Shown here piece after piece: positions 21,408 to 43,272 of a stretch of 58,517 nucleotides of DNA. Position 1 is the first letter of the stretch, and each line of letters opens with the position of its first letter. The DNA is taken from positions 1 to 58,517 of the forward strand of contig SCSM01000017.1 in assembly GCA_004322215.1 (NCBI GenBank), given 5' to 3'. The position numbers and the translations under genes were made by a program. The DNA is from Bacteroidota bacterium (GTDB taxonomy: Bacteria; Bacteroidota; Ignavibacteria; Kapaibacteriales; UBA2268). The notes under the pieces were generated by a model. The model saw only the letters and a list, made by a program, of their open reading frames with translations, was not told the origin of the DNA and did not search any database.

Positions 21408-23270
21408 TCACTTCCCGACAGGGTTCACAACCACAGGCAGTTTCCCTGTTATCAATCGTTTTTCTTTTTGTACATCCATTTCGTCAATCAAAATGGCATC
21501 GGGAACGATGAAAGATGATGGAATTCCACTTAAATTCCAACTTTCTGAGCCGGCGAATCCGAAGGCAAATGAGAACAAGCCGCTCATTCCGCCTCCCTGC
21601 GAAAGCATCGTGTTATATGCAAATTTTTGTGCCGATGAACCTGCTATTTTTTTCAATGTGCTTAACGATATACTACCTATTTCGGCAGAGCGCAATAGTT
21701 CTTCTTTACCATCAGCTACCGATACTTTGTAAATAGCAATCGGCTTACTGACAGAACCTTTCTTTTCAAAACCCGAAGCGAATGACATTATTGAGGATTC
21801 ATCCATCTTTGTTTTGATTGATGAAGCCGGTGATTTTAGCTTTCTGATAATAATAGCATAATCCAATCCTCCTTCTTTAGCTTTCTCAATCAGTAGCTTT
21901 TTAAGTTCATCCCTCTTAAGAGTTTCAGAAAATGAAAAGTCGATTACACCAGCCCCTATATCGGATGTAACCGATGAACCCTGGAACTTGACCCTCTTAC
22001 TTCCGTTTGAGCCATCGAGTTTTGGTGTCGGAATCCTGCTGTTCAAAATAGTTTTTAACGAACCCTTATCAACAAGCGTTAGTTCATTCGGAGGGACGAC
22101 ACCTTCCATATCAACCTGGTAACTTCCGATTAATTTTTTACCGTCAAATTCGGTTTTTGATGGAGTTGATTTTATAGTAAGATTATCAGCAAGAATTTTC
22201 TTTCCCATTTTATCATCGAGTGATTTTCCCATCATTTGATTAGCAAATAACAAAAACTTCGGGTCGCTGTAAATCAATTTTCTTATCGCTAAAAGTCCTT
22301 CATTTTCGGAGAATAGACGTTGTGAGAGCATTTCACCTACTGCCTGGTCTTCGAATAATACTGGACCTGTATATGATTCCTCGAAAGATTTTGCTTTTCT
22401 CAATGAGACAAGATTTTCTGCCATTTTCTTTACATCAGATTTCATCGCATCAAGCTTGGGTAAATCCTCTGGACTAACTTCATAATACAAAACCTGGTCA
22501 AAAAGCGGTTCTCCGTCTTCCGCCTGCGTGTACGCATTCACCTGGACCGCAGCGAGAGTTACGGGAAAAACTGTTTCGGTTTCTTCGCTGTTAATATAAA
22601 ATTCATCCCCCTGGATAAAAGTTATTGTTACTTCCGACTTATAAATATCCGGGTAAGTTCCGAATAGACCGGAAATTTCTTTTGCCGCAGATTCCCATTT
22701 TGTTTTATTGAAATCAAATTTCACAGGGGAAAGTTTTTTATTTACAACCGGTGCCTTGAAAAGGTCTCCAAGTGCCGAATCTTCAGGTGTAAGCTTCTGC
22801 TGGTTGATTGCTGATATTTTCTTCTCATAAGTTTCTGCTGCACGTTTATACATCTCATCTGTTGATTTCCAGATTACCCTTCGAATTCCGTCATAATCGT
22901 TTTCCAATGGAAGCTCATCATTGGTGAAGCCGGACACAAAATCACCTCCCGATTCCGGGTCAAAGAAATTTTCCTGTGTTCTTTTGTAATCCCCTACAAT
23001 AATGCGCGACCACAGCGAGCGATAGGGTTTTACTTCAGAAACAACGATTGCTCCGAGTGATGCTTTTAGTGACATAACCTTTAAATCATGAATATTATAG
23101 CAGATGAAAAACGGCTTTTTTAGATTTTCGAGCGAAAGATTATTCAAATTCCTGCCCAACTCATCTTTCACAGCTTTAATAATTATGTCTCTTGAATTGC
23201 TTTGCTGGGAATAAGATAAAGTAATACCCAGGACTAATGTTATGACTATTGATATTATTTTCTTTTTCAT
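21408..23270 (-). CDS. Exported TldE/PmbA-like partner protein
   Basis: 620 aa. The signal peptide ends near LSYSQ. Overall layout follows the TldD/PmbA (peptidase U62) family: DIIIKAVKDELGRNLNNLSLENLKKPFFICYNIHDL at the start, the middle segment YTGPVLFEDQAVGEML at about 320-340, and a C-terminal barrel ending VPDAILIDEMDVQKEKRL. At the place where the TldD neighbour has HEIFGH this protein reads QAVGEMLSQRLF, so the zinc motif is absent, as in the non-catalytic TldE subunit. It lies 29 nt downstream of the tldD-like gene. A heterodimer of the two in the periplasm is the natural inference. Unlike cytoplasmic E. coli TldD/E, both carry signal peptides. Confidence 0.82.
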   Translation of the reverse strand: MKKKIISIVITLVLGITLSYSQQSNSRDIIIKAVKDELGRNLNNLSLENLKKPFFICYNIHDLKVMSLKASLGAIVVSEVKPYRSLWSRIIVGDYKRTQENFFDPESGGDFVSGFTNDELPLENDYDGIRRVIWKSTDEMYKRAAETYEKKISAINQQKLTPEDSALGDLFKAPVVNKKLSPVKFDFNKTKWESAAKEISGLFGTYPDIYKSEVTITFIQGDEFYINSEETETVFPVTLAAVQVNAYTQAEDGEPLFDQVLYYEVSPEDLPKLDAMKSDVKKMAENLVSLRKAKSFEESYTGPVLFEDQAVGEMLSQRLFSENEGLLAIRKLIYSDPKFLLFANQMMGKSLDDKMGKKILADNLTIKSTPSKTEFDGKKLIGSYQVDMEGVVPPNELTLVDKGSLKTILNSRIPTPKLDGSNGSKRVKFQGSSVTSDIGAGVIDFSFSETLKRDELKKLLIEKAKEGGLDYAIIIRKLKSPASSIKTKMDESSIMSFASGFEKKGSVSKPIAIYKVSVADGKEELLRSAEIGSISLSTLKKIAGSSAQKFAYNTMLSQGGGMSGLFSFAFGFAGSESWNLSGIPSSFIVPDAILIDEMDVQKEKRLITGKLPVVVNPVGK

Positions 23271-23299
23271 TTATACCTCTTTAAATTTATTTTTATTAA

Positions 23300-25012
23300 T
23301 TATTCGGGAATTGAACCGGGGCGAGGCAGAATCGGCGGCTTATCCTGCGATTTGCTTTTCTTCTGCACTTCAATCCGTTTAACAAATATCGAAGGAGTCG
23401 ACGAACTGACAGGGACACCACCCGATTCGGCTCCACAAGTGCCGTTAAACACTTCATAATCGCTTCCTGCCTCTGCTATCTGTGAAAACATCGAGAGTGG
23501 TGTTCCGACAAGGTCAACGCCACGCACAAGCTCGTCGGGTCTGCCGTCAACATATACCTTGTAAACTTCTGTCGGCATTACATTGAAAGAATTTGGAATT
23601 GTCCTTCCGGTAATAGTAAAACCGCCGGTTATATCCTCAAAAAAGTACCCGAATGGAATTCCCTGCGATTTACACTCGTCAATCAGCTTTTTTCTCAGCT
23701 GTTCTTTCGTCAGAGGATTGGTCGTTTCCAAAATAAGGTTGGACTGCCGGCAAACCGGCTTGTATCCGGACTGCGCCCTGCCATGTCCGTTAGAATGAGG
23801 AAACTTGTCAATCGGGCTTCTTGACATTAAAAAATTCTTCAAAATCCCATTTTCAATAACTGCAACTTTTTCTCCTTTCATACCCTCGTCATCATACATA
23901 TAATAGCCGTTAAGGTCAACCCCGTTATGTGATTTGATAGATGGGTCGAATATCACACTCATCTGAGCGGGAAGAATCAGTTCGCCGACTTTTTTCTTGA
24001 AAGTCTGTCCTTCATCTTCGCTTTTTTGCCTGTGCCCTTCAACTCTGTGACCGAATATTTCATGGAAAAATACACCGGCTGACCTGCCTGAAAGAATCGC
24101 CGGTCCTGTGTACGGGTCAACGACTGGAGCATTCTGCATTTTCTTTAACTTATCAACCAACTCGGTAACCTCTTTTATTACCTGTTCATCATTTGGTAAA
24201 TTTTCCGGCTTGTATGCAAAGTAGGAGAGATATAAAGGGAGTTCCATTCCGTCATTTGCCTTAATAGTCCCGCTCACAAATAAACGAACCCCAAACCTGT
24301 TCTGAACAATTTTCGTGCCTTCAGTCGAAACAAAGTATTTTCTCTCGACACTGAAATTGACTGTAGCATCGCCTCTGTATATGTCTTTTTCTTTTAACAA
24401 TATTTTGGAATATCTTTTCAACCTGTCTTCCCATACTGTTCTGTCGAAGCTGTAGTCCTTTGGATTTAGCGGTTCTTCGTAATATTCCACTTTGCCGTTA
24501 TCATTCGAAAAATCTGCAGATGTATCCTCTGCTGTAACTTTAACTGCAACATTTGCTTTCACCTTCGCAAATTTATCTGCTGCCGTTCTGTACTCGTCAT
24601 TCGTAACGTTCCAGATGATTTGCCGGATTGCCTTTTCATCATCATCGATAGGAAGTAAATTGTTCTGGGGTAGCATTCCGAAAATCTCGCTCAGTTGGTC
24701 GCCTCTTAGTTCATGTGTATTATCGAGAACATTGTTCCCCACCCTGATTTGAGTTGTAAAGTAATGTTTGTGCGATTCATCCGAGTTGGTAATATTTCCG
24801 AAAGAGGCGCTGACAGTATATCTCCGCACGTCATCCACCCTGTAACAAATATAATATGGCGGATTCTCCTGTGTCTTGAGTACATCCATTTCACGGTTCA
24901 TTTCATCGGTGATTATATCGAGCAATTTATCAGGTGCTGCTGTCAGATTAATTGCAGTAGATATGAAAAACGAAATGAAAATAATTATAAACAAACTTAA
25001 CTTTTGACGCAT
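23300..25012 (-). CDS. Exported TldD-like zinc metallopeptidase
   Basis: 570 aa. The signal peptide ends near LTAAP. It has the TldD core: DPYTGPAILSGRSAGVFFHEIFGH with the zinc motif HExxxH at His317-His322, RVEGHRQKSEDEGQTF after it, and GTCGAESGGVPVSSSTPSIF near residue 530, where the Cys matches the third zinc ligand of TldD. The family cleaves extended unstructured peptides in a TldD/TldE barrel, for example in microcin maturation in E. coli. Here the pair is sent to the periplasm, so the role is probably peptide or misfolded-protein turnover, or trimming of an exported peptide. The next gene, 29 nt downstream, is the zinc-less TldE-like partner. No precursor peptide gene is evident nearby. 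Confidence 0.9.
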   Translation of the reverse strand: MRQKLSLFIIIFISFFISTAINLTAAPDKLLDIITDEMNREMDVLKTQENPPYYICYRVDDVRRYTVSASFGNITNSDESHKHYFTTQIRVGNNVLDNTHELRGDQLSEIFGMLPQNNLLPIDDDEKAIRQIIWNVTNDEYRTAADKFAKVKANVAVKVTAEDTSADFSNDNGKVEYYEEPLNPKDYSFDRTVWEDRLKRYSKILLKEKDIYRGDATVNFSVERKYFVSTEGTKIVQNRFGVRLFVSGTIKANDGMELPLYLSYFAYKPENLPNDEQVIKEVTELVDKLKKMQNAPVVDPYTGPAILSGRSAGVFFHEIFGHRVEGHRQKSEDEGQTFKKKVGELILPAQMSVIFDPSIKSHNGVDLNGYYMYDDEGMKGEKVAVIENGILKNFLMSRSPIDKFPHSNGHGRAQSGYKPVCRQSNLILETTNPLTKEQLRKKLIDECKSQGIPFGYFFEDITGGFTITGRTIPNSFNVMPTEVYKVYVDGRPDELVRGVDLVGTPLSMFSQIAEAGSDYEVFNGTCGAESGGVPVSSSTPSIFVKRIEVQKKSKSQDKPPILPRPGSIPE

Positions 25013-25383: not shown

Positions 25384-28300
25384 TTATAGGTTATTCATCA
25401 GTTTCTCTGCTTCAGCAAAATCCGGTTTTAGCTTGATTGCCCATTCCAGCATTTTAATAGCATCGTCATTTATTCCTGCCTCGATGAAACATCGCGCAGC
25501 ACCGAAACAAGCGAATGGATTGGAATTGTTCATTTTTAATGCTTCTGTGTATAGCTTCAATGAGTTTTCAATATCACCGAGTTCAAACAAACCCTCTGCC
25601 GTGTCGCATAGCAGGTCATCGAGTGCAACTTTCAGCGTGGTATTAAACCGTGTTTCTTTCCATTTATTCATCAATTCAGTCAAAAGTTCGAGTGCTTCTG
25701 TCCAATTGCCATTCATCAAGAATGATTTGGCTTTGATATAAATGCTGTCAGGATGGTCCGGTGAAATTATATCGGCTTCTGATATAAATTTCCCAGCTAA
25801 TTCAAAATCTGATTCGAGCATTGAAATCATTGAGAGCTTGTGTAAAGCATGAAGCTTGAATCGATCACTTTTAATTCCGTGCTCCAGTACTTCCGAATAC
25901 AATCTTTTTGCCGATTCATAATTTCCCGAATCGAAATTTTCATCTGCTTCGCCAAGAATAATAAATTCATCCCGTTTATCATTTAAGTTATTTTCTGCTT
26001 TATGAGCCAATGCTTTATCGTAGAGATAATCTAATCGTGAAATGATTTTCAATGTAGAACGTTTCCATGTCCATTGTGTTCTCGCCCTGTATGTGGCTTT
26101 CAATCCCTTATCAAAAATCAGGGCAGGATTAGAATATACATTTTTCAGAATTTCTGTCAATGCAGCTGCATCCGGTTCAAGAACGAATGCTTCTCCTGTT
26201 AACTCGAGATTACCGATTTTATCTCCTATCGAACGTGGTTCGGATGGTATCAGCCAACCCACTTTCTCATCTACGAAGTCATCAGTCGAGCCGCCATCAG
26301 TAACAATAACGGGCAAACCGCAAGCCATCGCCTCGAGTGTCGGAAGTGAAAACCCTTCTCCCCTGTAGGAACAGACAAACACATCACATGACCTGTACAG
26401 GTTTGCTATCTGTTCCTCGGTCATGTAATTATCAAAGTAAATTATTTCGGGTGAACCAGGCACTTTCCGCAATTTCTCTATGTGGTCTTTTGCAGTTTGC
26501 CCTTTGTAAAATGATTCGCCGCCCATATCCTTAATGATTAATGTTATATCATCATCGGATGTAAATGCTTTTGTGTATGCATGGAGGAGTACGTCAATCC
26601 CTTTCCTGAAAATTGTACCGCCTATGTAAAGGAATTTCAATTTCTTGTTTGTCGGAATCAGATACTTATCGCCTGACGGCTTGAAAAGCTCAGGGTCAAT
26701 GCCGTTCGGAATGACCTGCACTTTATTGAAATCTATTCCCGAATTAATAAAGCTCTGCCGCGAATATGTCGAAGGAGTCCAAAGTTCATCAGCTTGTTTG
26801 AATAAGTCTGCAAAATCTTTTCTCAAAGTTGTGTATTCCCAGGGCTGCATTATTATCCACTTTGCACCTCTCGGCGGCTCATTGTTTGGGGGCCATTGAT
26901 GTCGTATCCAAACATAAGGTAGACGTGCTACCTCCTTGCTAACCTCTTTTTTGAATCTTATGTCATTGTCTTTTAATTTTTCATACTTCGGATTTCCACC
27001 GGGTAGAAACCTGTCATTTTCATAAGGCACAATTGTTACATTGGCAAGTCCTGTATCAATCAAATTAGCACACTGCTCGCGATTGATTAATGCAAGAGAA
27101 TGATATACAAATTGAGAACCCTCCCATACTATGTTTAATTGAGGTTGCCCATTTTTTCCTTCATGTAGAGGCGTATTGCCATGCGTCTCTAACTTATGTT
27201 CTGTGTCAAATACTGGTTTTTCCTCTTCTTCCAAATCAAACGTAAATCCCGATAGATTCTCATCTGCGTTTTCTTTAGGTAATATTTCTTGCTGCGAAAC
27301 ATTGCCATGCGACTCTAAAGTAATACCGTTTGCATTCGCAAAATACCCCGGCAAAACATTTTTCTCATCTATCAATTTTAATTTGACTGTTTCTTTATTA
27401 TTCAGGTAAAAACCAAAGAGAACATTGTCAATATCTGTATTTTCGGTAACATTTATCGTTACTTCTTTATAATCAAAATTCTTTTTTATATTATTTTCGA
27501 TATCCAGAAATTCATCTGCTATTACTGATGGCGAAAAATTATTCATGCACTCGATATTACATGGGATTCGCCAGTAGCAATTTAGACAATTAAGATTCTG
27601 ATTCCTGGCAACAGCAAATCCAGATGAAGGATTTCCGCTCAATGCAGGGTTTGTCAAACCGAATAGCACCATTGTCGGTTTTTTGAAATAATTGTGTCCC
27701 GCATGATAAAATGCACTGTCAATTGTCAGGAATTTATCACAATGTTCAGCCAATGCCATCTGTAACCTGAATGGTATATTCTTCCATGCACAATCATATA
27801 ATTCAGGAATACTTAATCCCGGCGATTCCTTTCCAAGAAGAAGGAATCTGAAATTCGGATTTCGATTTAATAACTCCCTGACCAAATCTTTTGTGTATGG
27901 ATAGCTTCTCTTCTGGTCTTTGTTTGTGAATAATTGAATCCCGATTAATTCATAACCGTTTTTGAAATTGGAAATTTCATTTTTTGCCCAATCGGCTTCC
28001 TGTTCGGTGATTGTATATATTATGTCCTGCTTCGTAAATCTCATTCCTGCTATGTTACCGAATATGTCCATGTATGAAATACCATTGTAATATTCAGGCA
28101 GTTTCGCAATAATGTTTGTGTAATCAACCACAACATCAGCCATTGATTCGATTGTTATTTCATCTTCCGAACCCGAAAGTATAATATCTTCTATATCATT
28201 GTGATTGAGGAACACATCGCCGACAATCTCATTTCCTGATATGTATATTTTCAATTGCGGATATTTCTCTTTCAACTCAGCAACAATCGCCGTCAATGCA

Positions 28301-31300
28301 AATGCATCGCCGATTGCAGGAGGGGATTTGATAATAACCGTTTTTGCATACTGATAATTCCGGTCTAAAAACTTTTTTGAAAAGCTTGTGAAATATTCTT
28401 TTTTCTCTTCCTTCTGCTTTGCTCCTTTTATTTGGGATTCCATCATTGATTTGAATTTCTCTTCATTAACCGGAACAAGTGTGTTGCCCTGCATTTTCAA
28501 ACCGTCTTCGGCATAAAATAAATTTGCATCACGCTTGATTTGACTATCCCATCGTTTCATAAATCTTTCACGGTTTCTCAATTCTTTCGGAGTGTCTAAT
28601 GCGAGTAAATCTTCGCCGTTTGACTGTCTCAGCTTTTTAGTGATTGATTCGTAATGATATAGAACAACTTCGGGATTGTAAATAATCTTTTTCCCGCTTG
28701 AATTGACTTTCATGCAAAGGTCAGTATCTTCCCATCCGAAAACATATTTTTCATCGAACCCGCCAATTTGTCTGAAGAGTTCTGTCCTTATAGCCAGGCA
28801 TGCTCCCGTAACAAATTGCATTTCTCTTCTTCTATCGACAAGCGGAAGAGATGGATCTGCTGTCAGGTATGCATGATATGGCTCTTCAGGTCTTCCGGGT
28901 CTTTCGCCGAATATCATCCCGGCATGTTGTATGGTCCCATTCTCATATAATAGTTTTGCTCCCTGGATTCCGACATCGGGATTGCTCCGGAATTCCTTCT
29001 CGATTGCATCCAGCCATCCCGGGAATGGATATGTATCATTATTTAAAAATACAAGATATTTTCCCTTTGCAATTTCAGCACCCCGGTTATTCACAAATGC
29101 ATAATTTTCATTATTATGATTTGATATTATTTCAAATTGCAGTGATTTATTACCTTTTGTCTCCTCATTCAGATTTTTCAGATATTCTGCTGTTCCATCG
29201 GTTGACGCATTATCAATTAATATTAATTCAATATTAAATAATCCTTTCATCTTCCTGATTCCTTCGATGCATCTTTTTGTATAATCGAGATTATTATGTA
29301 CAGGTATTATTATTGAGAAAGTAATATGCGAATCAATTTTATGATGGAATTTATCTTCATCAATTCTTATAGGTAAAATCTTTTTTATAAATTCAATCTT
29401 ACAGGTTTCATCTATTGTTATCTGCCCGGTCCACTTGCTTCTGAACCTGTGGTAATCCTTAGTTTGCTTTAAATCAATATCATAATTTTGAGAACCGGAA
29501 TCCGAAACTATACTGCTACCGCAAAATCTTACTTTGAATCCTGATTGAGACATTCTCAGACAAAAATCTACATCTGCAAAATATTTTTCAAAGCCCTCAT
29601 CGGGTACACCAACATTTACTACTGCCGACTTGCGGATAAGCATGCATGTTAACGGCAGTGAGTGAACATCATTCGAAATTTCAGACTCTTTCAATTCGGA
29701 AATGCTTTTCCCGTTGACAGGGTAATACAAATCTATACCTGTTGGCTGGGGTTTTATTTGACCCCATCCCGGTTTTATATATTCACTATTCGAATCGAGT
29801 ATGCAGGGTCCTGCCAAGCCGATATTTTCATCAGAACGTATTACATTTATCAAATTATCGAACCATTTCTCACTCAAATGCAATGATGGTTCAACAAAAC
29901 AAATGAAACATGAGTTGTTTGAAATTATTCCCTGCGATAATGATATTATATTGCTGTTTATCAACGGGTCATTCAATAAAAATACATCATCTTTTTTGGA
30001 AAGCTTCTTTGGTAAATGAGTATCAACAATATCCTTTGGAATATTTCCGGCTATTGTAAAGTTATAATTAAAACCTGTTACTGTCCTTCTTATCGAATTA
30101 ATAAATTCCGAAAGCAAATCTAAATCAAATGTAAAGGGAATAACGAAAGTGACAGCAGGGTCATTCTTTTCCTGCTTATTTAATAATCCTATCATCTTCT
30201 TCTTTAAATCTTCCGCTTCACGGTAATCGCCGTTCTTTTGAAGGACCTGAATCAACCTGTGAATATATTTTATATCATCCGGATTTTTCTCGAGGATTTC
30301 CCTTATCCATATTTCCCATTGATTGGAAATGGTTATTTCTTCATTTTCATCCAATTCTATAACATTCAACCATTTCTCATCGAGCAGTTTCTGGTTGATT
30401 TTGTCGTTATCATGCCTTGAAATTGACATTGATTCATAATGATACACTATACTGTCCGCACAATACCTGATTCTGTATCCTGTCGAGTAAGCCCTGAAAC
30501 AATAATCTACATCTTCATAACCGTTTTTGAACTTCTCATCCAATAAACCTATCTCGCTGATAACATATTTTTTTAATAGTACACAGGCAAATGTAACGAC
30601 TTTATAATCCCTCGAGTTTCTTGCTGAAGGTGTGCTGTTCAAACTTCTGAGCCGGTTTACATGATAAGGTGCTATTCCTCCTCCAATCATTCCAGCTCTA
30701 ACACCGCAGTGCTGGATTTTATCGGTATCCGGGTAAAGCAGCAATGAGCCCACAATACCAATCTTCTCATCTGACATTGCTTCTTTAATCAATGGTTCAA
30801 GCCATCCCCCAGTAACTTCGGTATCATTATTCAGAAGAATAATGAACTCACTTTTGCTTTTACTAATACCCTGATTACAAGCTGCAGCAAATCCCTCATT
30901 TTTTGAATTTCGTATAAATATAAAATTGTCTCTTTCGGTTGATAATTCTCTAAAAAGTGACTGAGTGCCGTCACTCGAAGCATTGTCGATGGCAATAATT
31001 TCAAACTTTATGTTTTGTGTAAATTGATATATACTGTTGATGCATTTCTTAGTCAGTTCAATCCTGTTAAATACCGGAATAATTATACTGACACTTGGTT
31101 TATCCCGTTTAATGCTTTGAATTTTTACACCGGTTTTTTCAGTTTCTTTAAGTTTGTTTACTTCTGCTTCGATTGATTTTTCGTTAATCCTTCTATGATA
31201 AAGTATCTCCTCATTTTCTCCGACAATGCCTTTGGTTTTATCATAAATAATTCTCAAAGTTCTGAGCATATCTGCCCTACGCGATGATGTCATAGTCGAA

Positions 31301-33615
31301 CCGTCTGTCCTCCATGTAAATTCGCAGGTTGCTTGTCTTATATGCGCAAATTCGAAATTAAGTCCGATTCTAATCCACAAATCCCAGTCTTCGTGAGTTG
31401 AGAGTGATTCATCGTATAACCCGGAATATTCAAGGCACAATCGGTTATGCATTACACATAATATCGGTATGTAATTCCCGACTAAGAGTTTTTTATAACT
31501 AAAATCTTCGGAGTAAATAACTTTCCTGTCCACCGTTACATATTCCCCGTTTTGCTTTACCTGGCTTGCCCTGAATGCATCGGTATATGCCACTTTGTAA
31601 TTGCTGTTCTCGAGAAATCTCACTAATGTTTCAAGATGGTTGTTATAGAATATATCGTCATCATCCAGATAGCATATATATTTTCCCCTGGAACACTTGA
31701 TACCGGTATTTCTTACGATAGACATACCGCTGTTTTTCCAAAGCTCGAGATATTTTATTCTTTGGTCATCAAATCCCTCTATTACTTTTATTACGGATTC
31801 TCCACCGTCATTGATTACGATTATTTCAAAATCCTTATATGTTTGCTGCAAAACACTAAGGACAGCGATTTTCAGCATCTCAGGACGATTGAAAGTCGGG
31901 ATGATAACGGTTACTTTGATGCTCTCGATTTCTTCCGGTCTCCAAATCATATATAATTCATGAAGCAGAGGATTTGTTGGATGTCTCTTCAGTGCATTAA
32001 TTAATCTGTCGGAACTGCTCGCCGGCATTTTCCTGATTTTTTCTTTTGCATCGGCAATTGCTTTATCATCGTACAATTCTTTATGATGAATAATTATATG
32101 AGCCAATACTTCATCAATTTTTGACATAGTTGTCTCAACCATCGTCCCTGCCCTGTTTCTATAGAGAAACAGTGGTTTCTCGAGATGATAAGATTTGAAT
32201 CCGTGTTTTGCTGCCGATACCCAAAAATTCCAGTCATGAGCGCCGATGAACATTGCTGTTGAAAATCCACCACCGGTCTCCCACACTTCTTTCCTGAACA
32301 AACTGCAATAGTCATGAACATTATATTTTATCAGGTATTGAAGTCCTGACGGACCCTTCCTGTGTATATGATTCGTCTCGCCGAAATTCTGTTCGTCAAC
32401 ATAAACTATGTCATAACCGGGATTTTTTTCAAGTATTGCAACTGTTTCTTCGAGATAGGTGGTTGCTATCTTATCATCAGCATCGAGTGGGAGAATATAC
32501 TTCCCCTTTGATATTTTAATTCCTTCGTTTCTTGCAAATGGTAATCCACCATTCTGTAGTTCAATGACTTGAATATTACAATCATGGTACTTCTTAATCA
32601 ATTGATTTGCAATTTCATTCGTATTGTCCGGACTGCCATCATTGACTATTATACATTCCCAAATTTTATATGTTTGATTGACAACGCTTTCAACTGCCTC
32701 AGCCAAATACTCTGCCTGCTTATAGCATGGAATTATTACCGACACAATTATATCAGATTGTTTTATCGCATCTCCTGTAAAGACCAATTCTACTTCCTGA
32801 TGGCAGGCATTCGGTATGAAGTTATTGTATTTTTCTATATCTATTCTTTTCCCTTTGTCAAATATATCAGCCAGTTCATCTGCTGAATAGCTGATTTGCT
32901 CCGAAGCACGGTTAGTGGGATTAGTGGTCTGTACTTTGTTAACAGGAATACAGAAAGTTAATGATTCCTCATAGCAAATCAATTCAGGAAGCGGCTCCTT
33001 GTAATATGAAACATTCTGCCAGAGATACTCCTCCAATGTATTCGGATTACGAAAATCAATCACAACCATCAGCTTGAAAATGTCTGCCACTCTATATATT
33101 GAACTGGATAATTCAAGCGGATAGCCAAAATCATATTCTTCATTAGTCCAATCGAATATAATATACCCGTAACCAATTTGAGTGAATTTCGGGAATCTCT
33201 GAGATGCCCTGCGTGAATAGCAATAGTCCGTATTTTTACCAAGACGAAGCGAAATTCCTATTGCCTTTTGATTTTCATCTAATAAATTTACAAGGTCAAC
33301 TATTCTGAAATCCCTGACAAATATATTGTCATCAACAAGGAATAACAATTTCTCATAAGGAGCTGCCAGAGCCAGAACATCACTCTTGAAACTTTTTTCT
33401 TTTATAAATTTTATATCCCGGTTTTTTGAAAATTCACTCGCTAAAATATCATATTGTCTTTGATGATGTTCGGATGAAGTTGTATATAAAATACGAATGT
33501 CATATTCATCGAAATCACTGCAATGAAGCATATAGGAACGGAGAGTCGCATCTAATTGCATAGCACGGTCGCGGCTGAAAATGAGTATTAACGTTTCTTT
33601 CGTATTAACTTCCAT
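25384..33615 (-). CDS. Giant multi-domain glycosyltransferase (six GT-A-like + GT9 + GT4 + TPR)
   Basis: 2,743 aa from ATG 33615, one nt after the stop of the upstream gene and preceded by GGGAG; an ATG ten codons earlier would overlap that gene. Domains: 1-270 GT-A-like (LVDDN); 290-490 GT2 (VSVIIPCYKQ, DADD at 378); 567-780 GT2 (VTVIIPTFNRP, DDDD at 651); 840-1085 GT2 (SIIIPVFNR, LLNNDTE, YEDVDYCFR); 1154-1395 divergent GT2; 1431-1690 GT2 (SIIIPVHNN, FLNNDTY, GWEDTDLC); 1757-2040 GT9-like (SPPAIGDAFALTA, TIDSAFYHAGHNY and a Cys cluster CLNCYWRIPC); 2155-2530 GT4 (IPNGIDPELF, GEGFSLPTLEAMACGLPVI); 2550-2743 TPRs. No signal peptide or membrane segment, so cytoplasmic. It probably assembles a multi-sugar glycan, with each active domain adding a residue. 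The acceptor (protein or lipid) is unknown. Confidence 0.9.
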   Translation of the reverse strand: MEVNTKETLILIFSRDRAMQLDATLRSYMLHCSDFDEYDIRILYTTSSEHHQRQYDILASEFSKNRDIKFIKEKSFKSDVLALAAPYEKLLFLVDDNIFVRDFRIVDLVNLLDENQKAIGISLRLGKNTDYCYSRRASQRFPKFTQIGYGYIIFDWTNEEYDFGYPLELSSSIYRVADIFKLMVVIDFRNPNTLEEYLWQNVSYYKEPLPELICYEESLTFCIPVNKVQTTNPTNRASEQISYSADELADIFDKGKRIDIEKYNNFIPNACHQEVELVFTGDAIKQSDIIVSVIIPCYKQAEYLAEAVESVVNQTYKIWECIIVNDGSPDNTNEIANQLIKKYHDCNIQVIELQNGGLPFARNEGIKISKGKYILPLDADDKIATTYLEETVAILEKNPGYDIVYVDEQNFGETNHIHRKGPSGLQYLIKYNVHDYCSLFRKEVWETGGGFSTAMFIGAHDWNFWVSAAKHGFKSYHLEKPLFLYRNRAGTMVETTMSKIDEVLAHIIIHHKELYDDKAIADAKEKIRKMPASSSDRLINALKRHPTNPLLHELYMIWRPEEIESIKVTVIIPTFNRPEMLKIAVLSVLQQTYKDFEIIVINDGGESVIKVIEGFDDQRIKYLELWKNSGMSIVRNTGIKCSRGKYICYLDDDDIFYNNHLETLVRFLENSNYKVAYTDAFRASQVKQNGEYVTVDRKVIYSEDFSYKKLLVGNYIPILCVMHNRLCLEYSGLYDESLSTHEDWDLWIRIGLNFEFAHIRQATCEFTWRTDGSTMTSSRRADMLRTLRIIYDKTKGIVGENEEILYHRRINEKSIEAEVNKLKETEKTGVKIQSIKRDKPSVSIIIPVFNRIELTKKCINSIYQFTQNIKFEIIAIDNASSDGTQSLFRELSTERDNFIFIRNSKNEGFAAACNQGISKSKSEFIILLNNDTEVTGGWLEPLIKEAMSDEKIGIVGSLLLYPDTDKIQHCGVRAGMIGGGIAPYHVNRLRSLNSTPSARNSRDYKVVTFACVLLKKYVISEIGLLDEKFKNGYEDVDYCFRAYSTGYRIRYCADSIVYHYESMSISRHDNDKINQKLLDEKWLNVIELDENEEITISNQWEIWIREILEKNPDDIKYIHRLIQVLQKNGDYREAEDLKKKMIGLLNKQEKNDPAVTFVIPFTFDLDLLSEFINSIRRTVTGFNYNFTIAGNIPKDIVDTHLPKKLSKKDDVFLLNDPLINSNIISLSQGIISNNSCFICFVEPSLHLSEKWFDNLINVIRSDENIGLAGPCILDSNSEYIKPGWGQIKPQPTGIDLYYPVNGKSISELKESEISNDVHSLPLTCMLIRKSAVVNVGVPDEGFEKYFADVDFCLRMSQSGFKVRFCGSSIVSDSGSQNYDIDLKQTKDYHRFRSKWTGQITIDETCKIEFIKKILPIRIDEDKFHHKIDSHITFSIIIPVHNNLDYTKRCIEGIRKMKGLFNIELILIDNASTDGTAEYLKNLNEETKGNKSLQFEIISNHNNENYAFVNNRGAEIAKGKYLVFLNNDTYPFPGWLDAIEKEFRSNPDVGIQGAKLLYENGTIQHAGMIFGERPGRPEEPYHAYLTADPSLPLVDRRREMQFVTGACLAIRTELFRQIGGFDEKYVFGWEDTDLCMKVNSSGKKIIYNPEVVLYHYESITKKLRQSNGEDLLALDTPKELRNRERFMKRWDSQIKRDANLFYAEDGLKMQGNTLVPVNEEKFKSMMESQIKGAKQKEEKKEYFTSFSKKFLDRNYQYAKTVIIKSPPAIGDAFALTAIVAELKEKYPQLKIYISGNEIVGDVFLNHNDIEDIILSGSEDEITIESMADVVVDYTNIIAKLPEYYNGISYMDIFGNIAGMRFTKQDIIYTITEQEADWAKNEISNFKNGYELIGIQLFTNKDQKRSYPYTKDLVRELLNRNPNFRFLLLGKESPGLSIPELYDCAWKNIPFRLQMALAEHCDKFLTIDSAFYHAGHNYFKKPTMVLFGLTNPALSGNPSSGFAVARNQNLNCLNCYWRIPCNIECMNNFSPSVIADEFLDIENNIKKNFDYKEVTINVTENTDIDNVLFGFYLNNKETVKLKLIDEKNVLPGYFANANGITLESHGNVSQQEILPKENADENLSGFTFDLEEEEKPVFDTEHKLETHGNTPLHEGKNGQPQLNIVWEGSQFVYHSLALINREQCANLIDTGLANVTIVPYENDRFLPGGNPKYEKLKDNDIRFKKEVSKEVARLPYVWIRHQWPPNNEPPRGAKWIIMQPWEYTTLRKDFADLFKQADELWTPSTYSRQSFINSGIDFNKVQVIPNGIDPELFKPSGDKYLIPTNKKLKFLYIGGTIFRKGIDVLLHAYTKAFTSDDDITLIIKDMGGESFYKGQTAKDHIEKLRKVPGSPEIIYFDNYMTEEQIANLYRSCDVFVCSYRGEGFSLPTLEAMACGLPVIVTDGGSTDDFVDEKVGWLIPSEPRSIGDKIGNLELTGEAFVLEPDAAALTEILKNVYSNPALIFDKGLKATYRARTQWTWKRSTLKIISRLDYLYDKALAHKAENNLNDKRDEFIILGEADENFDSGNYESAKRLYSEVLEHGIKSDRFKLHALHKLSMISMLESDFELAGKFISEADIISPDHPDSIYIKAKSFLMNGNWTEALELLTELMNKWKETRFNTTLKVALDDLLCDTAEGLFELGDIENSLKLYTEALKMNNSNPFACFGAARCFIEAGINDDAIKMLEWAIKLKPDFAEAEKLMNNL
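27166..27191. repeat. Palindromic repeat inside coding linker
   Basis: Near-perfect palindrome with arms TAGAGGCGTA and TGCGTCTCTA around TTGCCA, inside the linker between the GT9 and GT4 domains. On the coding strand it reads KLETHGNTPLHE. A partial second copy (ATTGCCATGCGACTCTAA, 27301-27318) codes LESHGN 42 codons away. Confidence 0.65.
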
Positions 33616-33616
33616 T

Positions 33617-35983
33617 TCATTCTCCCGACAAAATTTTTGCTGCATCGCGGTTTTCCGGCTCCAAACTCAACACAGCCAGAGCCAATCTAAATGCTTTTTC
33701 ATAATTACCTTTACCGGCTTCATCTTTCGCCATTTCCAGCAATCTCTTCGTATCTCTGAAATCTTCAACAACGGGCTTTTCCGGCTTTTTAATTTCAACT
33801 TTATTAGTTTGTTTTTCACCCGGCTTTTGATAAACGACATGATATCCGACTGTGAATTGGTCTATAAAGCAATTATCCTCGAGATAGAATAAATATCTTG
33901 GTATCCACTCGCCGAACAAGCTGTGAATTTGTTGCCCGTTTTCACCGTGCAAATGCTTGTGCTGGTCCCATGTCCACGCTAAGCGTGCCGATTCCTGTGC
34001 AAGTAATCTAAAATAACCTCCGTTTGAAACTATTTCAATAAGATTCAAATTGAATCTTTCAGCCATCAGCTTGTACCACTCAGGTGTATAACCCCCGTAA
34101 TAATGATAAGGCAACTGGTGAAGTCCCGAACCAAGCGGTGCAGTAATGAATATCTTTCCACCGGGTTTTATAATTCTTGTCATCTCTTCGACCGCCTTTA
34201 TTGGCTCCGGCACATGCTCAAGCACTTCTGTGCAAAGAATGTAATCGAATGATTCACCAGGAACAGGGATTGAAGCTATATCCGATTCATAATCAATTTT
34301 ACCATATTCAGTTGTATTTCCAAGCATGACTCCATGATACTTCTTGAAATCATGTGCCTTATAATTGCAATGTGAAAAATTAGCTCTGTAAGGGCAAGTT
34401 CCTGCACCAATATCGAGTATGGAAGCACCTGCAGGAACTTCCTTCGCCTTCTCAATCACCCATCTGTCCCTGTCTCTTTGATTGAAATTGTGAATTTCAT
34501 CCAATGGAAGTTGTGCATCATTCTGCTTTAATACTTCAACAGCTTTTTGAGGTATATCAAATTTGAATTTCTCGTAATCAATGATTGGATGCGGCAATTC
34601 GGCACCCGATAATACAATATCTCTCAATTGTCTTTTCCATGCTTCGTGACTTGGCTTCTCGGATTCATGAACAGTGCTGTCCCAAAGAAGTTCATCAGCT
34701 GCTTGAAGAAGTTCTTGTATTGACAAATCTTTTATTTTCACTCCAACTGCATGTACACTTGACAAAAACGGCTCATGCTTCCATGATTCGCTTTTAGTCC
34801 TGATGTTACCGAAACCAAGTTTGGATAATGTCTTCTCAAATCTTTCAGGAAACCAATGGTCTATATGATAAGCCCACGAGTTAACCTGGTCACCAGCAAG
34901 ATGGCGTATGACACCGGTTTTTACATTCCATTTATTGTTAGACAAAAATGTCTTTGCACTTCCCTCAAAATCGGGTGTTTCTATATACAGTTCCCCACCT
35001 GTTTTCAGCCATTTGTGCCAGCGAATAAGCAGTGCCAATGCGCCTACACGGCTAAAATGCTCAAATACGTGATGTAGCCGTATTTCATCAACTGTATTAT
35101 CAGATAGATTCAGTTTTGTAATATCTGCAAAAACATCCGCTTTCACATTCATTATATCATGTTCGCTCGGGGGATAATCCACGTTGATATATCCGTTGAA
35201 ATGCTGTTCGCCACAGCCGAGATGAAGCCGCATCGGTTTTCCGTCCGACCATAATTTCTTTTCTTTTATTTCCCTGATAAAATCAAGCGAAATTTTTTCT
35301 TGAATTTTTGAATATTCATTTGCTTTTTCAAAATAATCCTGATGAATCAGAATTGTATTGATATATGTATCTGCATATACGATGTAACCTCTTTCTGTCA
35401 GAAAATCTATCAGGTGCTTATCCTTTTTCCTGTATTTAAAATCATTCCCGAAAGGCAGAGTTTCAATGCAGATTACTTTAGGAAAGCATCTGTCATAATT
35501 AATTGATTTCAATATTCCTAATTCTAATCCCTCTACGTCTAAATTTAAAAAATCTGGAAAAACAGAATTAGTATATTGATTTATTACGTTCATCAATGTA
35601 TCAACAGGAATTGGGATAACCTGTTCAATTACATATCCGTGATTTTTTACGAAATCATCTGCCTCATTTTTATCAAATGTGCTAATCGTATTTGCATTCA
35701 TTATATAGAATGGTAATTCACCTTTATTCCCTGCAACTCCTATGTTTAAATTAATATCTCTTTGCCTGTGATTCAAGAATTCCCTGAAGAGATTCGGATT
35801 CGGCTCAATATTTATTCCGCTTGCTCCGGCATCATAGAATATTGCCGTGTTGCTTAGATTGAAAGGATGGTGTGCACCAATATCAATATAAGTTGGTTGT
35901 TTTATTCCAAGATTATCAAAAATGAATTTTAGTATTATATCCTCTCCACATTGCGAAAATGATGTGTGAGCGTAATTATCCAT
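33617..35983 (-). CDS. Triple SAM methyltransferase (FkbM + two class I domains) with TPR tail
   Basis: 788 aa. Domain 1 (1-215) is FkbM-type: QCGEDIILKFIFDNLG, YIDIGAHHPF at 32-41, INIEPNPNLF, LNLDVEGLELGIL. Domain 2 (250-410) is a class I methyltransferase: LHLGCGEQHFNGYINVDYPP, then DEIRLHHVFEHF and GGELYIETPDFEG. Domain 3 (505-680) is Methyltransf_11-like: ASILDIGAGTCPYR, FDYILCTEVLEHVPEP, GGKIFITAPLGSG. Residues 740-788 look like a TPR pair (AGKGNYEKAFRLALAVLSLEPENRDA), the same kind of tail as the next gene. The stop is one nt before the start of the giant glycosyltransferase, so translation is coupled. Methylation of sugars in the same glycan, for capping or modification, is the likely role. 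No signal peptide. Confidence 0.9.
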   Translation of the reverse strand: MDNYAHTSFSQCGEDIILKFIFDNLGIKQPTYIDIGAHHPFNLSNTAIFYDAGASGINIEPNPNLFREFLNHRQRDINLNIGVAGNKGELPFYIMNANTISTFDKNEADDFVKNHGYVIEQVIPIPVDTLMNVINQYTNSVFPDFLNLDVEGLELGILKSINYDRCFPKVICIETLPFGNDFKYRKKDKHLIDFLTERGYIVYADTYINTILIHQDYFEKANEYSKIQEKISLDFIREIKEKKLWSDGKPMRLHLGCGEQHFNGYINVDYPPSEHDIMNVKADVFADITKLNLSDNTVDEIRLHHVFEHFSRVGALALLIRWHKWLKTGGELYIETPDFEGSAKTFLSNNKWNVKTGVIRHLAGDQVNSWAYHIDHWFPERFEKTLSKLGFGNIRTKSESWKHEPFLSSVHAVGVKIKDLSIQELLQAADELLWDSTVHESEKPSHEAWKRQLRDIVLSGAELPHPIIDYEKFKFDIPQKAVEVLKQNDAQLPLDEIHNFNQRDRDRWVIEKAKEVPAGASILDIGAGTCPYRANFSHCNYKAHDFKKYHGVMLGNTTEYGKIDYESDIASIPVPGESFDYILCTEVLEHVPEPIKAVEEMTRIIKPGGKIFITAPLGSGLHQLPYHYYGGYTPEWYKLMAERFNLNLIEIVSNGGYFRLLAQESARLAWTWDQHKHLHGENGQQIHSLFGEWIPRYLFYLEDNCFIDQFTVGYHVVYQKPGEKQTNKVEIKKPEKPVVEDFRDTKRLLEMAKDEAGKGNYEKAFRLALAVLSLEPENRDAAKILSGE

Positions 35984-36155: not shown

Positions 36156-36500
36156 ATGATTTCGATTGAAACGTTTCCTAATCCGAAACCCGATAGAAAA
36201 TATGTGATTACTCATGTCAATCCTGAGTTTACATCTGTCTGTCCGAAGACAGGTCTGCCTGATTTTGGCATCATTACGGTCAAATATATACCCGATAAAG
36301 TCTGCCTTGAACTGAAAGCATTGAAGTATTATTACTTGAGTTACAGAGATAAAGGCATTTTTTACGAAGCAGTTACCAATCAGATTTTGGATGACCTCGT
36401 TGCCGCATGCGAACCTCTCGAAATGGAAATCACAAGCGAATGGACAACACGCGGCGGTATGAATTCAGTTATAGTAGCAGAATATCATAAGGGTGAATGA
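36156..36500 (+). CDS. queF: NADPH-dependent 7-cyano-7-deazaguanine reductase (QueF)
   Basis: 114 aa, the short single-domain (YkvM-like) form. It reduces the nitrile of preQ0 to the amine preQ1 in queuosine biosynthesis. Catalytic Cys29 and Asp36 lie in TSVCPKTGLPDFG. The QueF NADPH motif appears as ELKALKYYYLSYRDKGIFYE at about 64-83, followed by ACEPLEMEI and TRGGMNS. It is divergently transcribed from the methyltransferase gene and 217 nt upstream of queD on the same strand. I see no preQ1 riboswitch in the 170-nt leader. Confidence 0.95.
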   Translation: MISIETFPNPKPDRKYVITHVNPEFTSVCPKTGLPDFGIITVKYIPDKVCLELKALKYYYLSYRDKGIFYEAVTNQILDDLVAACEPLEMEITSEWTTRGGMNSVIVAEYHKGE

Positions 36501-36717
36501 TAAACTTTAATAGTTATTAATTTTCAATTTTTAATTTAAAATAAATATCAAATTTCTATTTTTTAATGATTAAAATGAAATCTTAAAAAATATGTTTAAG
36601 AGGAAAGTCAATTATTATGGAAAAACATTTTATTGTCGTTTAAAAATTAAATATTTTAAATTGAAAATTCATTTTAAATTATAAATTAAAAATTTAAAAT
36701 TCTTGATAAAGAGAGTT

Positions 36718-37140
36718 ATGTTTTCAAAAATCGCTAAAGAGTTTAAATGGGAAATGAGCCACCGCCTTCCTTTTCATAAAGGTGAATGCAAAAACATACA
36801 TGGTCATTCCTACAAATTAAGAATAGAATTAAGCGGCAAAGTTGACGATAACGGAATGTTAATCGATTATTATAACATTGAAAAAATCGTTATGCCGCTT
36901 GTCAGAAAGCTCGACCACGCATTCATCTGCAATGAGGCGGATACTCTAATGCTCGAATTTCTCACAAAACACAATTTCAAACATTACGTCATAAAAGAAA
37001 ACACAACTGCAGAAAACCTCGCAGACTTTTTCATCAGCAAATTATCACCTCAATTCAAAAACTATTCCAATATTAATCATATCATTATCAGGGTTTACGA
37101 AACCGAAGATGCCTACGCCGAATCCGAATCAAAATTGTGA
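36718..37140 (+). CDS. queD: 6-carboxy-5,6,7,8-tetrahydropterin synthase (QueD)
   Basis: 140 aa from ATG 36718, preceded by AAAGAGAG; a TTG at 36703 would add five residues. It converts dihydroneopterin triphosphate to CPH4, the second step of the deazaguanine (queuosine) pathway. Zinc ligands: His15 (MSHRLPFH) and His28/His30 (NIHGHSY), with catalytic Cys24 (GECKN). LDHAFICNE and ENTTAENLA follow, and the end reads IRVYETEDAYAESESKL. With queF just upstream this is a small queuosine locus; queC and queE are not in the window. A second, degenerate copy of the last 18 codons lies at 37258-37314. Confidence 0.95.
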   Translation: MFSKIAKEFKWEMSHRLPFHKGECKNIHGHSYKLRIELSGKVDDNGMLIDYYNIEKIVMPLVRKLDHAFICNEADTLMLEFLTKHNFKHYVIKENTTAENLADFFISKLSPQFKNYSNINHIIIRVYETEDAYAESESKL

Positions 37141-37388: not shown

Positions 37389-39311
37389 ATGAGAATAACA
37401 TCAGTTGACATACCAAAATCACCAGATAATAATGATGGACTTGAACATATTAAAATGGACAGGTTAGGACCTATTGTTTTATTAGCAGGAAAAAATGGCT
37501 CTGGTAAAACAAGAATATTAAATAAAATATTTTCTACATTAAAAGCAAAGCCAAATAAAAATTTAGTTAATAATTCAAAATTGCAAATGCAGAATATTCA
37601 AAAGAATATAAGTCAATTTAGTTCTAATAATGAAAATTTAAAAAGTAAATTATTAAATCAAACAAATCAAACACAAATTGATAATTTAAATAGAGCAATA
37701 AATGATAATCAATTAAGAATTGAAAATTCAAATAAACAAATATTAGATCATGAAAAAGTGATTTATTACAAAACAATAATTTCATCTGAAATTTCGGATC
37801 ATTATACATCAGTTCATTTTGTACCAAAAAATTTGACGTTAACTGATTGCAATCAATTAAATAAACATGAACTACTTAGATCTGCTAGCAATTATGATAA
37901 GATAGGAATTGAAAATATACATACAGGAACATCGGCAAAAATCCAAATTATTCAGAATAGTTGGCATGAAGCTACTCATCAATTTTCAAGTATATCTGAA
38001 ATTGATAAGAAGAATGCAATTGAAAATTATGAGAAACTAAAATACTTAATAAAAATTTTTTTAAATACTGAAATAGATAGAGATAAAAATGGTGAACCAA
38101 CATTATTTGGATTACCAATGAGCAGAGCAAATTTGTCCGAAGGACAAATTGTTCTAATTCAATTTTGCCTTTTAATATACAGTCAGGAAACTGCTCTAAA
38201 GGATCTTATACTTGTTATGGATGAACCTGAAAATCATTTACATCCATCTGTAATAATTGAATTGTTAAATAGAATACAAAAATTTGTCTCAAACGGTCAA
38301 ATATGGATTGCAACACATTCAATACCTTTACTTGCACATTTTGACCCCTCATTAATCTGGTATGTTGAAAATAATAAAATTAGTTATGCAGGGAAAATTC
38401 CCGAAAAAGTATTATCAAGCTTATTAGGAGATGAAAATGAAATAGCAAAATTACAAGATTTTATAAGCTTACCTGCCCAATATGCTACAAGTAATTATGC
38501 ATTTGAATGTTTGTTTGAACCAAAAACAATAATGACTGGAAGTAATGACATTCAATCATATCAAATAAGAGAGGAGTTAATTAAACTAACTAAAGAAGGT
38601 AAGCTAAGAGTATTAGATTATGGTGCAGGTAAGGGAAGATTATTATCAAATATATTTGACTTAGAACCAACCGAAAAAGATAAATTAATTGAAAACTTAG
38701 ACTATATAGCATACGACAAATTTGATAAAGATAAGGAACAATGTGAGAATTCTATAAGCAAAGCATATAGTATTTGTGAAAAAAGGTATTATAACAATAT
38801 GCAAAATCTATTATCAGATTATGATAAAAATAGTTTTAATGTTGTGATAATGTGTGATGTTTTTCATGAAATAGATCCAAAAGACTGGTTCAATTTATTT
38901 AAAGAAGATGGTACTATTACATCACTTTTAGCCGATGATGGATTATTATTACTTGTTGAAGATTATCAAATGCCAATTGGAGAAAAAGCATATCAAAATG
39001 GATTTATTGTTTTAGATAGACCACAATTGAAAGAACTTTTTAAAATCACAGAAAAGGATAAGGATTTTATTACTCATGATAAATATGGTGATGGAAGATT
39101 GAAATCACATCTGATACCAAAAAATTATTTAATTAGAATTGATTCTGATTCTCGAAGTGAATCATTAAAGTCGTTATGTAAATATTCAAAAGAAAATGTT
39201 AAAGAAATCAGGAATAAAGGAACAGATTATAAAATTGGTAAAATACATGGTTTTTGGATTCAACAATTAGTTAATTCTGAATTAAGTCTTGAAGAATTAA
39301 CTGTGAAATAA
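37389..39311 (+). CDS. ABC/SMC-type ATPase fused to a SAM methyltransferase domain
   Basis: 640 aa. The N-terminal half is an ABC/AAA_21-class ATPase with every motif present: Walker A GKNGSGKT at 34-41, a coiled-coil-like insertion at 60-125, signature NLSEGQI at 248-254, Walker B LVMDEPENHLHPS at 275-287, and H-loop IATHSIPLL at 307-315. From about 395 a class I methyltransferase begins: LRVLDYGAGKGRLL at 406-419, DYIAYDKFDKDKE, NVVIMCDVFHEIDP at 484-497, DDGLLLLVEDYQMP at 516-529. I know of no named family with this order. ATPases of this class (OLD, Septu PtuA, RloC-like) often serve phage defence. The gene is much more AT-rich than queD before it and DUF2723 after it, suggesting transfer. 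No partner gene is adjacent. Function is inference; the domain calls are direct. Confidence 0.8.
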   Translation: MRITSVDIPKSPDNNDGLEHIKMDRLGPIVLLAGKNGSGKTRILNKIFSTLKAKPNKNLVNNSKLQMQNIQKNISQFSSNNENLKSKLLNQTNQTQIDNLNRAINDNQLRIENSNKQILDHEKVIYYKTIISSEISDHYTSVHFVPKNLTLTDCNQLNKHELLRSASNYDKIGIENIHTGTSAKIQIIQNSWHEATHQFSSISEIDKKNAIENYEKLKYLIKIFLNTEIDRDKNGEPTLFGLPMSRANLSEGQIVLIQFCLLIYSQETALKDLILVMDEPENHLHPSVIIELLNRIQKFVSNGQIWIATHSIPLLAHFDPSLIWYVENNKISYAGKIPEKVLSSLLGDENEIAKLQDFISLPAQYATSNYAFECLFEPKTIMTGSNDIQSYQIREELIKLTKEGKLRVLDYGAGKGRLLSNIFDLEPTEKDKLIENLDYIAYDKFDKDKEQCENSISKAYSICEKRYYNNMQNLLSDYDKNSFNVVIMCDVFHEIDPKDWFNLFKEDGTITSLLADDGLLLLVEDYQMPIGEKAYQNGFIVLDRPQLKELFKITEKDKDFITHDKYGDGRLKSHLIPKNYLIRIDSDSRSESLKSLCKYSKENVKEIRNKGTDYKIGKIHGFWIQQLVNSELSLEELTVK

Positions 39312-42378: not shown

Positions 42379-43272
42379 TCAATGCACAACCATCACCGTC
42401 TTCGTTATTATATTCCCTCTATATTTGATTTGCAACAAATACAAACCCGATGGATAATTATATGTACTCAATTCATAACTTTTGTTATTCATCTTGTCAG
42501 CAAAAAGTAGAACACCAACCTGGTCGTACAATCTCAGCTCCGCCTCCTGATACAAATCAGAATTGGATTCAATTATTATGTTATCAGTATTAGGATCCGA
42601 TTTGATATTAAATGATGATGTATTATTATTTTTCTCTGAAACATCAGCAAAAATTCTATAGATTTCACAAGTTTTTGTATTAATATAAATAGATAATTCA
42701 GATATATCATTTGGGCAATTCCCACAAAATCTATATGTCCAAACCGGAAACCCATTCTCTTCGTAACTAAAAGGCCATCCGTGATAATGATATTTTAATT
42801 CTGAATAATTTAAATACATTAAATAAGTTGAATCTAAACATTTGACTAATGAATCAGTGTCAAGTAATATATCTTCTTCATATAGTTGTTGGTCAGATTT
42901 GAAATAAGATGGATAAACAAAAACCGAATCTAATATATAATTATCTCCATTATTCCATATTCTGAAATAAAGGCATGAATCTTGTGAATTACATATTAAG
43001 TAATACCAATATAAAGATTTCCCCGTTGAATCATTGTATGGATTTATTTTATCAATTAAAACCTTATATCCTTCATAAGGGAAATGATCTGAGTTTTGTA
43101 CTCTCCATCTAATACATTTTATAGAATACAACTCCACACCATCATCATTAAAATACAACTTTGCAATTTCCATCGCTTTTTGTATTCCCTGCTTTGCTGT
43201 GAAGTATTGGTAGTTCTGTGCCTCAAGTGCTGTAGCCGAAATGACAAGCAATAAAATTATTATCTTCTTCAT
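42379..43272 (-). CDS. T9SS-sorted secreted protein, unknown
   Basis: 297 aa. The signal peptide ends near LEAQ. Residues 22-200 are a beta-rich domain of unknown type (FTAKQGIQKAMEIAKLYF, FPYEGYKVLIDKINPYND, LYWYYLICNSQDSCLYF, GFPVWTYRFCGNCPNDIS); FTAKQGIQKA at the start recalls PepSY-like domains but I cannot confirm it. From about 210 a T9SS tail follows (NNTSSFNIKSDPNTDNIIIES, LYDQVGVLLFADKM, YPSGLYLLQIKYRG, final KTVMVVH). Four cysteines in the middle may form disulfides. It lies just upstream of the ParE/RelE pair on the complementary side and is AT-rich like other accessory genes. Confidence 0.75.
   Translation of the reverse strand: MKKIIILLLVISATALEAQNYQYFTAKQGIQKAMEIAKLYFNDDGVELYSIKCIRWRVQNSDHFPYEGYKVLIDKINPYNDSTGKSLYWYYLICNSQDSCLYFRIWNNGDNYILDSVFVYPSYFKSDQQLYEEDILLDTDSLVKCLDSTYLMYLNYSELKYHYHGWPFSYEENGFPVWTYRFCGNCPNDISELSIYINTKTCEIYRIFADVSEKNNNTSSFNIKSDPNTDNIIIESNSDLYQEAELRLYDQVGVLLFADKMNNKSYELSTYNYPSGLYLLQIKYRGNIITKTVMVVH

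Follow-up and report, generated by a model that had tools for sequence, protein, structure and literature searches.

Can one bacterial gene carry a whole series of glycosyltransferases (GTs), and on what acceptor would its product build a glycan? This question is raised by a multi-GT megaenzyme gene in the stretch of DNA analysed here (the window), which covers positions 1-58517 of contig C26, 58,517 nucleotides in length, in a genome of 4.2 Mb (47 contigs, 96.7% complete). The gene lies on the minus strand and extends over 25384-33645 when read from the first ATG at 33645, giving a protein of 2,753 aa, or over 25384-33615 (2,743 aa) from the alternative start at 33615, chosen in the initial annotation. 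Judged from the sequence, the start at 33615 looks better than the first ATG, since it is preceded at 6 nt by GGGAG and begins one base after the stop codon of the methyltransferase gene upstream.

The open reading frame has been confirmed as real and under purifying selection. It contains neither internal stops nor N bases, and the orthologue in a congener (G003) is colinear with the window protein over residues 1-2752 at 76% identity. The pN/pS ratio between the two proteins, rough because synonymous sites are near saturation, is 0.197 across 2,744 aligned codons. Calculated by part, the lowest of these rough values belong to the GT4 module (0.105) and the GT9-like module (0.109); modules 1-4 and 6 range over 0.129-0.242, the TPR tail stands at 0.287, module 5, the highest of the eight modules, at 0.40, and the short linker ahead of GT4 at 0.60. 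The colinear orthologue, the absence of internal stops and the purifying selection rule out an assembly join or mis-merged genes, and the initial reading of the locus as a single polypeptide holds. The highest mean over 19 residues on the Kyte-Doolittle scale is 1.57, therefore no membrane segment is expected in the megaenzyme.

The polypeptide consists of eight GT modules, namely one GT-A by fold, five GT2, one GT9-like and one GT4, followed by a C-terminal TPR tail. The modules, the tail and the upstream gene are as follows:

33617-35983, minus strand: upstream gene, one base from the start at 33615; 788 aa protein with an FkbM and two further methyltransferase domains
32770-33600, minus strand: module 1 (residues 16-292), GT-A-like by predicted fold, VDDN motif at 104-107
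31966-32751, minus strand: module 2 (residues 299-560), GT2 by Pfam, DADD at 388 and HDWNFW at 470
31141-31923, minus strand: module 3 (residues 575-835), GT2 by Pfam, DDDD at 661 and HEDWDLW at 751
30316-31107, minus strand: module 4 (residues 847-1110), GT2 by Pfam, NNDT at 939 and GYEDVDYC at 1042
29371-30192, minus strand: module 5 (residues 1152-1425), degenerate GT2 with VEPS at 1251 in place of DxD/NxD
28471-29325, minus strand: module 6 (residues 1441-1725), GT2 by Pfam, NNDT at 1535 and GWEDTDLC at 1637
27301-28335, minus strand: module 7 (residues 1771-2115), GT9-like, four invariant Cys toward its end
25936-27150, minus strand: module 8 (residues 2166-2570), GT4 core with E-x7-E (EGFSLPTLE, 2430-2438), the part conserved order-wide
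25387-25923, minus strand: TPR tail (residues 2575-2753), Pfam TPR_19 over the cut-off, proposed flagellin-docking region

Pfam analysis of the window protein revealed four GT2 stretches, one GT4 and TPRs. Modules 2, 3, 4 and 6 each combine a match to PF00535 with a DxD/NxD motif and a later acidic (D or ED) motif, and module 8 matches PF00534 (Glycos_transf_1) at 77 bits, over the cut-off, with the E-x7-E motif present. These E-x7-E, DxD/NxD and acidic motifs we take to be catalytic signatures of GT4 and GT2 enzymes. TPR_19 is found at 51.7 bits, over the cut-off; a GT domain and TPRs are thus carried on one chain.

The remaining three modules have been assigned by other means. The best 25 of the 26 Pfam rows listed for the window protein include no stretch in module 1. 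Its VDDN motif is invariant in four homologues, and its AlphaFold model (4 sequences, pLDDT 71.2, pTM 0.77) is matched best in Foldseek by GT-A enzymes, RmlT, TarP, SpsA and GnT-I among them, with a best E of 2.7e-6 and TM by query of about 0.4-0.5; two cytidylyltransferases are also among the 50 matches listed. By this predicted fold, module 1 is a GT-A-like domain. Module 5 appears as a GT2 relative by profile only (hhalign against module 6: probability 99.4, E 9.4e-22), its structure model being too poor for use (pLDDT 41.7). Module 7 reaches 12.4 bits against PF01075, below the cut-off of 22; five of its seven homologues match this family at E<=0.1 (best 9.7e-5), and its best PDB profile match is the GT9 protein 3tov (E 4.1e-4). 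Such matches weakly suggest a GT9-like module rather than a full GT9. The four cysteines toward the end of module 7 (27301-28335, minus strand) are invariant in seven homologues and form a possible metal site.

Pfam, fold and profiles together bear out the composition first proposed for the protein, i.e. six GT-A domains, one GT9-like domain, one GT4 and TPRs, with the GT9 call remaining weak. Of the up to eight transfer sites initially suggested, the eight modules are present, and at most seven sites look intact because VEPS stands in module 5 where the other GT2 modules carry DxD/NxD. It could be argued that only one or two modules are active and that the others are decayed passengers or scaffolds. 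The missing metal motif of module 5, together with its top pN/pS value, and the absence of modules 4 and 5 from a second congener (G001) agree with such a view, against which stand the recognisable motifs kept in seven of the eight modules, weakest in modules 1 and 7, and the rough pN/pS values of 0.105-0.242 in modules 1-4 and 6-8. Widespread decay is considered improbable; most domains retain recognisable motifs, and an assembly line for glycans is a fair description of the megaenzyme.

When 60 genomes were searched with the full-length protein, the C-terminal GT4-TPR part emerged as the most widely conserved piece of the megaenzyme. For comparison of architectures, 48 stretches and 79 named loci were fetched, and their ORFs were segmented by profiles seeded from the window. 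This gave 94 distinct core proteins, 57 of them order-level (core score over 500), of which 45 are complete. Among these 45, one GT module is recognised in 24 proteins, two in 2, three in 3, four in 7, five in 3, six in 4 and eight in 2, the last being the window protein and that of its congener; all counts are lower bounds, since these proteins retain unassigned upstream stretches of up to 1,764 aa. The number of GTs, described at the outset as unusual, is therefore the largest recognised within this set, and the proposed comparison of related genomes gives a range of 1 to 8. The tail behind the GT4 core measures 172-204 aa in the 45 complete proteins, with TPRs found by Pfam in all three order-level proteins scanned. 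All 19 complete proteins with at least three recognised GTs end in GT2-(GT9-like or GT4)-[methyltransferase]-GT4-tail, and 19 of the 24 proteins with a single recognised GT carry a methyltransferase domain as well. What stays constant is the GT4-plus-tail end; what varies is the number of modules in front of it.

In the phylum-wide sample, the core was detected at E<=1e-60 in 16 of 296 genomes, all of them from the window's class. Judged by the GT4 core, Ignavibacteria bacterium RIFOXYC2_FULL_35_21 is the closest named record (88%), the window's own genome being perhaps absent from the listing, and many further named homologues of the GT4 core belong to Candidatus Kapaibacterium or Kapabacteria records. 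Homologous multi-GT ORFs longer than the window protein include one of 4,531 aa in a class-level relative outside the order (G290; L160 1568-15163, minus strand) and one, with an open 5' end, of 4,783 aa or more in a Verrucomicrobia record (L129 2-14353, plus strand). In these longer homologues further GTs may be hidden in the unassigned stretches.

How modules enter or leave the series is indicated by several comparisons. In G001, of the window's genus, modules 4 and 5 are absent in frame, and the junction sits on the SIIIPV motif with which both module 4 and module 6 begin. Loss is the simpler reading, since a genome from another genus of the family (G015) contains a stretch matching window residues 859-2122. 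The homologues of Geomonas oryzae (2,834 aa, L123 5324-13828) and G. edaphica (3,045 aa, L124 4688-13825) have the same C-terminal module series and the same downstream gene, and differ from each other in the N-terminal half. The G. edaphica protein shares the Nterm-GT2a-GT2b order of the window protein; this module order is a hint of inter-phylum transfer. The view that modules arose mainly by recent tandem duplication is not supported, as only 2 of 30 cherries in a tree of 91 GT2 and N-terminal modules pair modules of one protein. Modules would have been gained and lost at shared GT2 motifs, and chain length and composition would consequently differ between relatives.

As to the acceptor, the distribution of the core gene points to flagellin. 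In the order sample of 123 genomes, the core was called at E<=1e-60 and flagellin by PF00669, a model that also matches the hook-associated FlgL. The core is present in 68 of the 123 genomes and PF00669 in 78; every one of the 68 core-positive genomes has flagellin, and the core is found in none of the 45 flagellin-less ones (Fisher p 3e-24, ignoring the relatedness of the genomes). One of the latter (G029, genus g3) keeps a diverged core gene with 29% identity and an E of 5.8e-47, below the threshold. Joint absence occurs within genera: single genomes of g18 (G362), g25 (G027) and g31 (G039) lack both genes and have congeners with both, and three other genomes of g31 have flagellin without the core. 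Altogether, ten flagellin-positive genomes are core-less (G002, G004, G016, G032, G037, G048, G339, G340, G365 and G385), so that the core gene is not needed for flagella; four of the ten are at most 85% complete, and G002 is a congener of the window genome. In the class sample of 391 genomes, where the core outside the order was called at a profile E<=1e-90, 18 of 19 core-positive genomes outside the order have flagellin, the exception (G540) having the core and no PF00669 match. With a background outside the order of 112 flagellin-positive genomes among at most 312, the rough hypergeometric p is about 1e-6 or less.

As a small control, a TMEM260-like gene was followed in the family and proved to persist in 3 of the 5 genomes without flagellin and in 40 of the 49 flagellin-positive ones, a weaker flagellin pattern than that of the core. 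QueF, QueD and the TMEM260-like gene are located near the megaenzyme locus (window 36156-37140 and 39352-41268), and in genus g9 (L157, L158) they stand beside GT clusters near flagellar genes. As a flagellin-linked marker the QueF-QueD-TMEM260 set was rejected, being suggestive in g9 only and given the persistence of TMEM260 in flagellin-less genomes.

Some gene neighbourhoods outside the order agree with the distribution. In 5 of the 19 class-level core-positive genomes (L161, L162, L163, L229 and L231), flagellin and FliD genes follow closely behind the core gene on the same strand, separated from it by one or two genes that include a GT2 gene of about 500 aa; both such GT2 genes scanned encode GT2-TPR proteins. 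Several of the other 14 loci lie at contig ends. At distant loci (<=45% identity), flagellin is present in the flank of 6 of 25, with examples confirmed by Pfam, in two Geomonas, Anaerolineae, Planctomycetota, Desulfatibacillum and Melioribacter records; these sets overlap, the Melioribacter locus L142 being on the same contig as L231, and L123 and L124 are congeners. Within the order, flagellin appears in the fetched flank of one genome only (G040; L052 and L111), and in the window genome the flagellin genes listed are carried by other contigs, C25 and C35.

Another protein might be glycosylated instead, such as a type IX secretion system (T9SS) cargo or an S-layer protein, the flagellin link then reflecting nothing more than a shared lifestyle. 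The T9SS sorting domains of four window proteins, the position of the gene away from flagellin in the order (G040 excepted) and the core genes kept without flagellin in G029 and G540 would fit this explanation. It is opposed by the flagellin adjacency in distant relatives, by the joint absence of core and flagellin within genera and, within the small control, by the weaker pattern of the TMEM260-like gene, and we assign it a low probability. The four window proteins with a C-terminal T9SS sorting domain (872-2509, 13090-14409, 42379-43272 and 48000-51710) are an alpha/beta hydrolase, a member of GH18, a protein of unknown type and one of PKD/Sortilin type.

A further alternative is that the repeat of an LPS O-antigen or of a capsule is synthesised on a lipid carrier, in the manner of the multi-GT polymerases of ABC-transporter-dependent pathways. 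GTs fused to other GTs and to methyltransferases do occur in such systems, Klebsiella WbbB uniting polymerase and terminator GTs on one chain in the portion of the report available (PMC11231755), and an ABC_tran match over the cut-off is present in the window at 37389-39311, inside an AAA/SMC-type ATPase-methyltransferase fusion. On the other side, a Pfam scan of 20 window ORFs showed no ABC-2 membrane partner, and the core tracks flagellin. Nor do the loci have a polysaccharide cluster in common: in the order, the best gene cluster is shared by at most 6 of 49 loci, core-protein clusters aside. A lipid-linked product thus seems improbable. The initial annotation had left LPS and glycoprotein as possible products; flagellin can now be proposed as the acceptor on the strength of co-occurrence and neighbourhood, and LPS is not favoured. 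Its idea of a repeat unit readable from the gene becomes unlikely if flagellin is the acceptor, because a defined chain rather than a polymer would be implied.

Other genes of the window were annotated alongside. The ATPase fused to a methyltransferase domain (37389-39311, plus strand) also gives weak matches to the defence-system ATPases PtuA, AriA and AbiLi. Directly downstream of the megaenzyme gene, two adjacent TldD/PmbA-type proteins are encoded (21408-25012, minus strand), whose N-termini resemble signal peptides by eye, and a protein with a phage tail collar domain is encoded at 10632-11609 (minus strand).

Taken together, the megaenzyme is probably a cytoplasmic enzyme of flagellin O-glycosylation, with the GT4-TPR end as starter and the N-terminal modules extending the chain. 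Flagellin as acceptor, the initiator role, the order of transfer, the donor sugars and the methylation are all inferred here. A soluble GT with multiple active sites would assemble, prior to export, an oligosaccharide O-linked to flagellin. The TPR tail would bind flagellin, and the GT4 domain would most likely add the protein-linked sugar; docking and placement of the first sugar are ascribed to this end because GT4 is the sole recognised GT in 24 complete relatives. The GT9-like module, then a GT2 and then further GT2/GT-A modules would add the later sugars to the still tethered acceptor, and the protein of the neighbouring FkbM/methyltransferase gene would probably methylate the product.

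Several elements of this scheme are known already, namely flagellin GTs linked to TPRs and polypeptides uniting two or three GTs. In FlmG of Caulobacter crescentus, a flagellin-binding TPR region is combined with a GT-B domain; compared by description, FlmG resembles the window protein in joining TPR and GT on one polypeptide for cytoplasmic O-glycosylation, and differs in having 596 aa, one GT, an N-terminal TPR and transfer of pseudaminic acid, in contrast to eight GT modules and a C-terminal TPR (PMC7591256, in part). In Maf-1, specificity for flagellin as acceptor is reported to come from a C-terminal TPR (PMC13317340, excerpt, citing Unay et al. 2024), a likeness to the window protein, but Maf-1 is a nonulosonic acid transferase; no Maf model is among the best 25 of the 26 Pfam rows listed for the window protein. 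The polar flagellin of Aeromonas carries a heptasaccharide with methyl variation, for which many GTs are needed, but in the sections available these are encoded by separate genes, fgi-1 to fgi-12, Fgi-1 having 327 aa and one GT2 domain (PMC7874193). The methylation of these Aeromonas sugars makes the gene upstream of the megaenzyme a fitting partner for a flagellin glycan. WbbB shares the presence of several GT modules per chain, other serotypes adding a methyltransferase, but according to the same partial source contains three GTs and makes a repeat polymer that is exported by an ABC transporter (PMC11231755). Enterobacterial flagellin glycosylation islands likewise combine GTs with methyltransferase domains, FkbM genes and a flagellin target, but involve GT41-type proteins, and no eight-GT protein is noted in the part of the account available (PMC4875605). 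In the largely open-access journal literature searched, neither a flagellin GT with this many modules nor a ladder of forms was found.

Whether the order of modules says anything about the order of sugars is a separate matter. Any such reading would more likely run from C to N, because the C-terminal end is the constant one. A constant inner spine with variable outer modules would fit that direction and would equally fit any constraint near the acceptor. A strictly colinear, template-like assembly line, in which the modules from the C-terminal GT4-TPR to the N-terminus correspond to the sugars from flagellin outward, is conceivable but doubtful.

Glycans are usually regarded as having no template. 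The proteins described here form a natural series with one constant end, one acceptor candidate and recognised GT modules numbering from 1 to 8 or more, and the relation of module number and order to glycan length and order is thereby directly testable. The two Geomonas proteins, differing in the N-terminal half, offer an example for relating module counts to flagellin glycans. If the colinear reading were true, the natural gain, loss and swapping of modules would rewrite the glycan, as in modular peptide and polyketide synthases.
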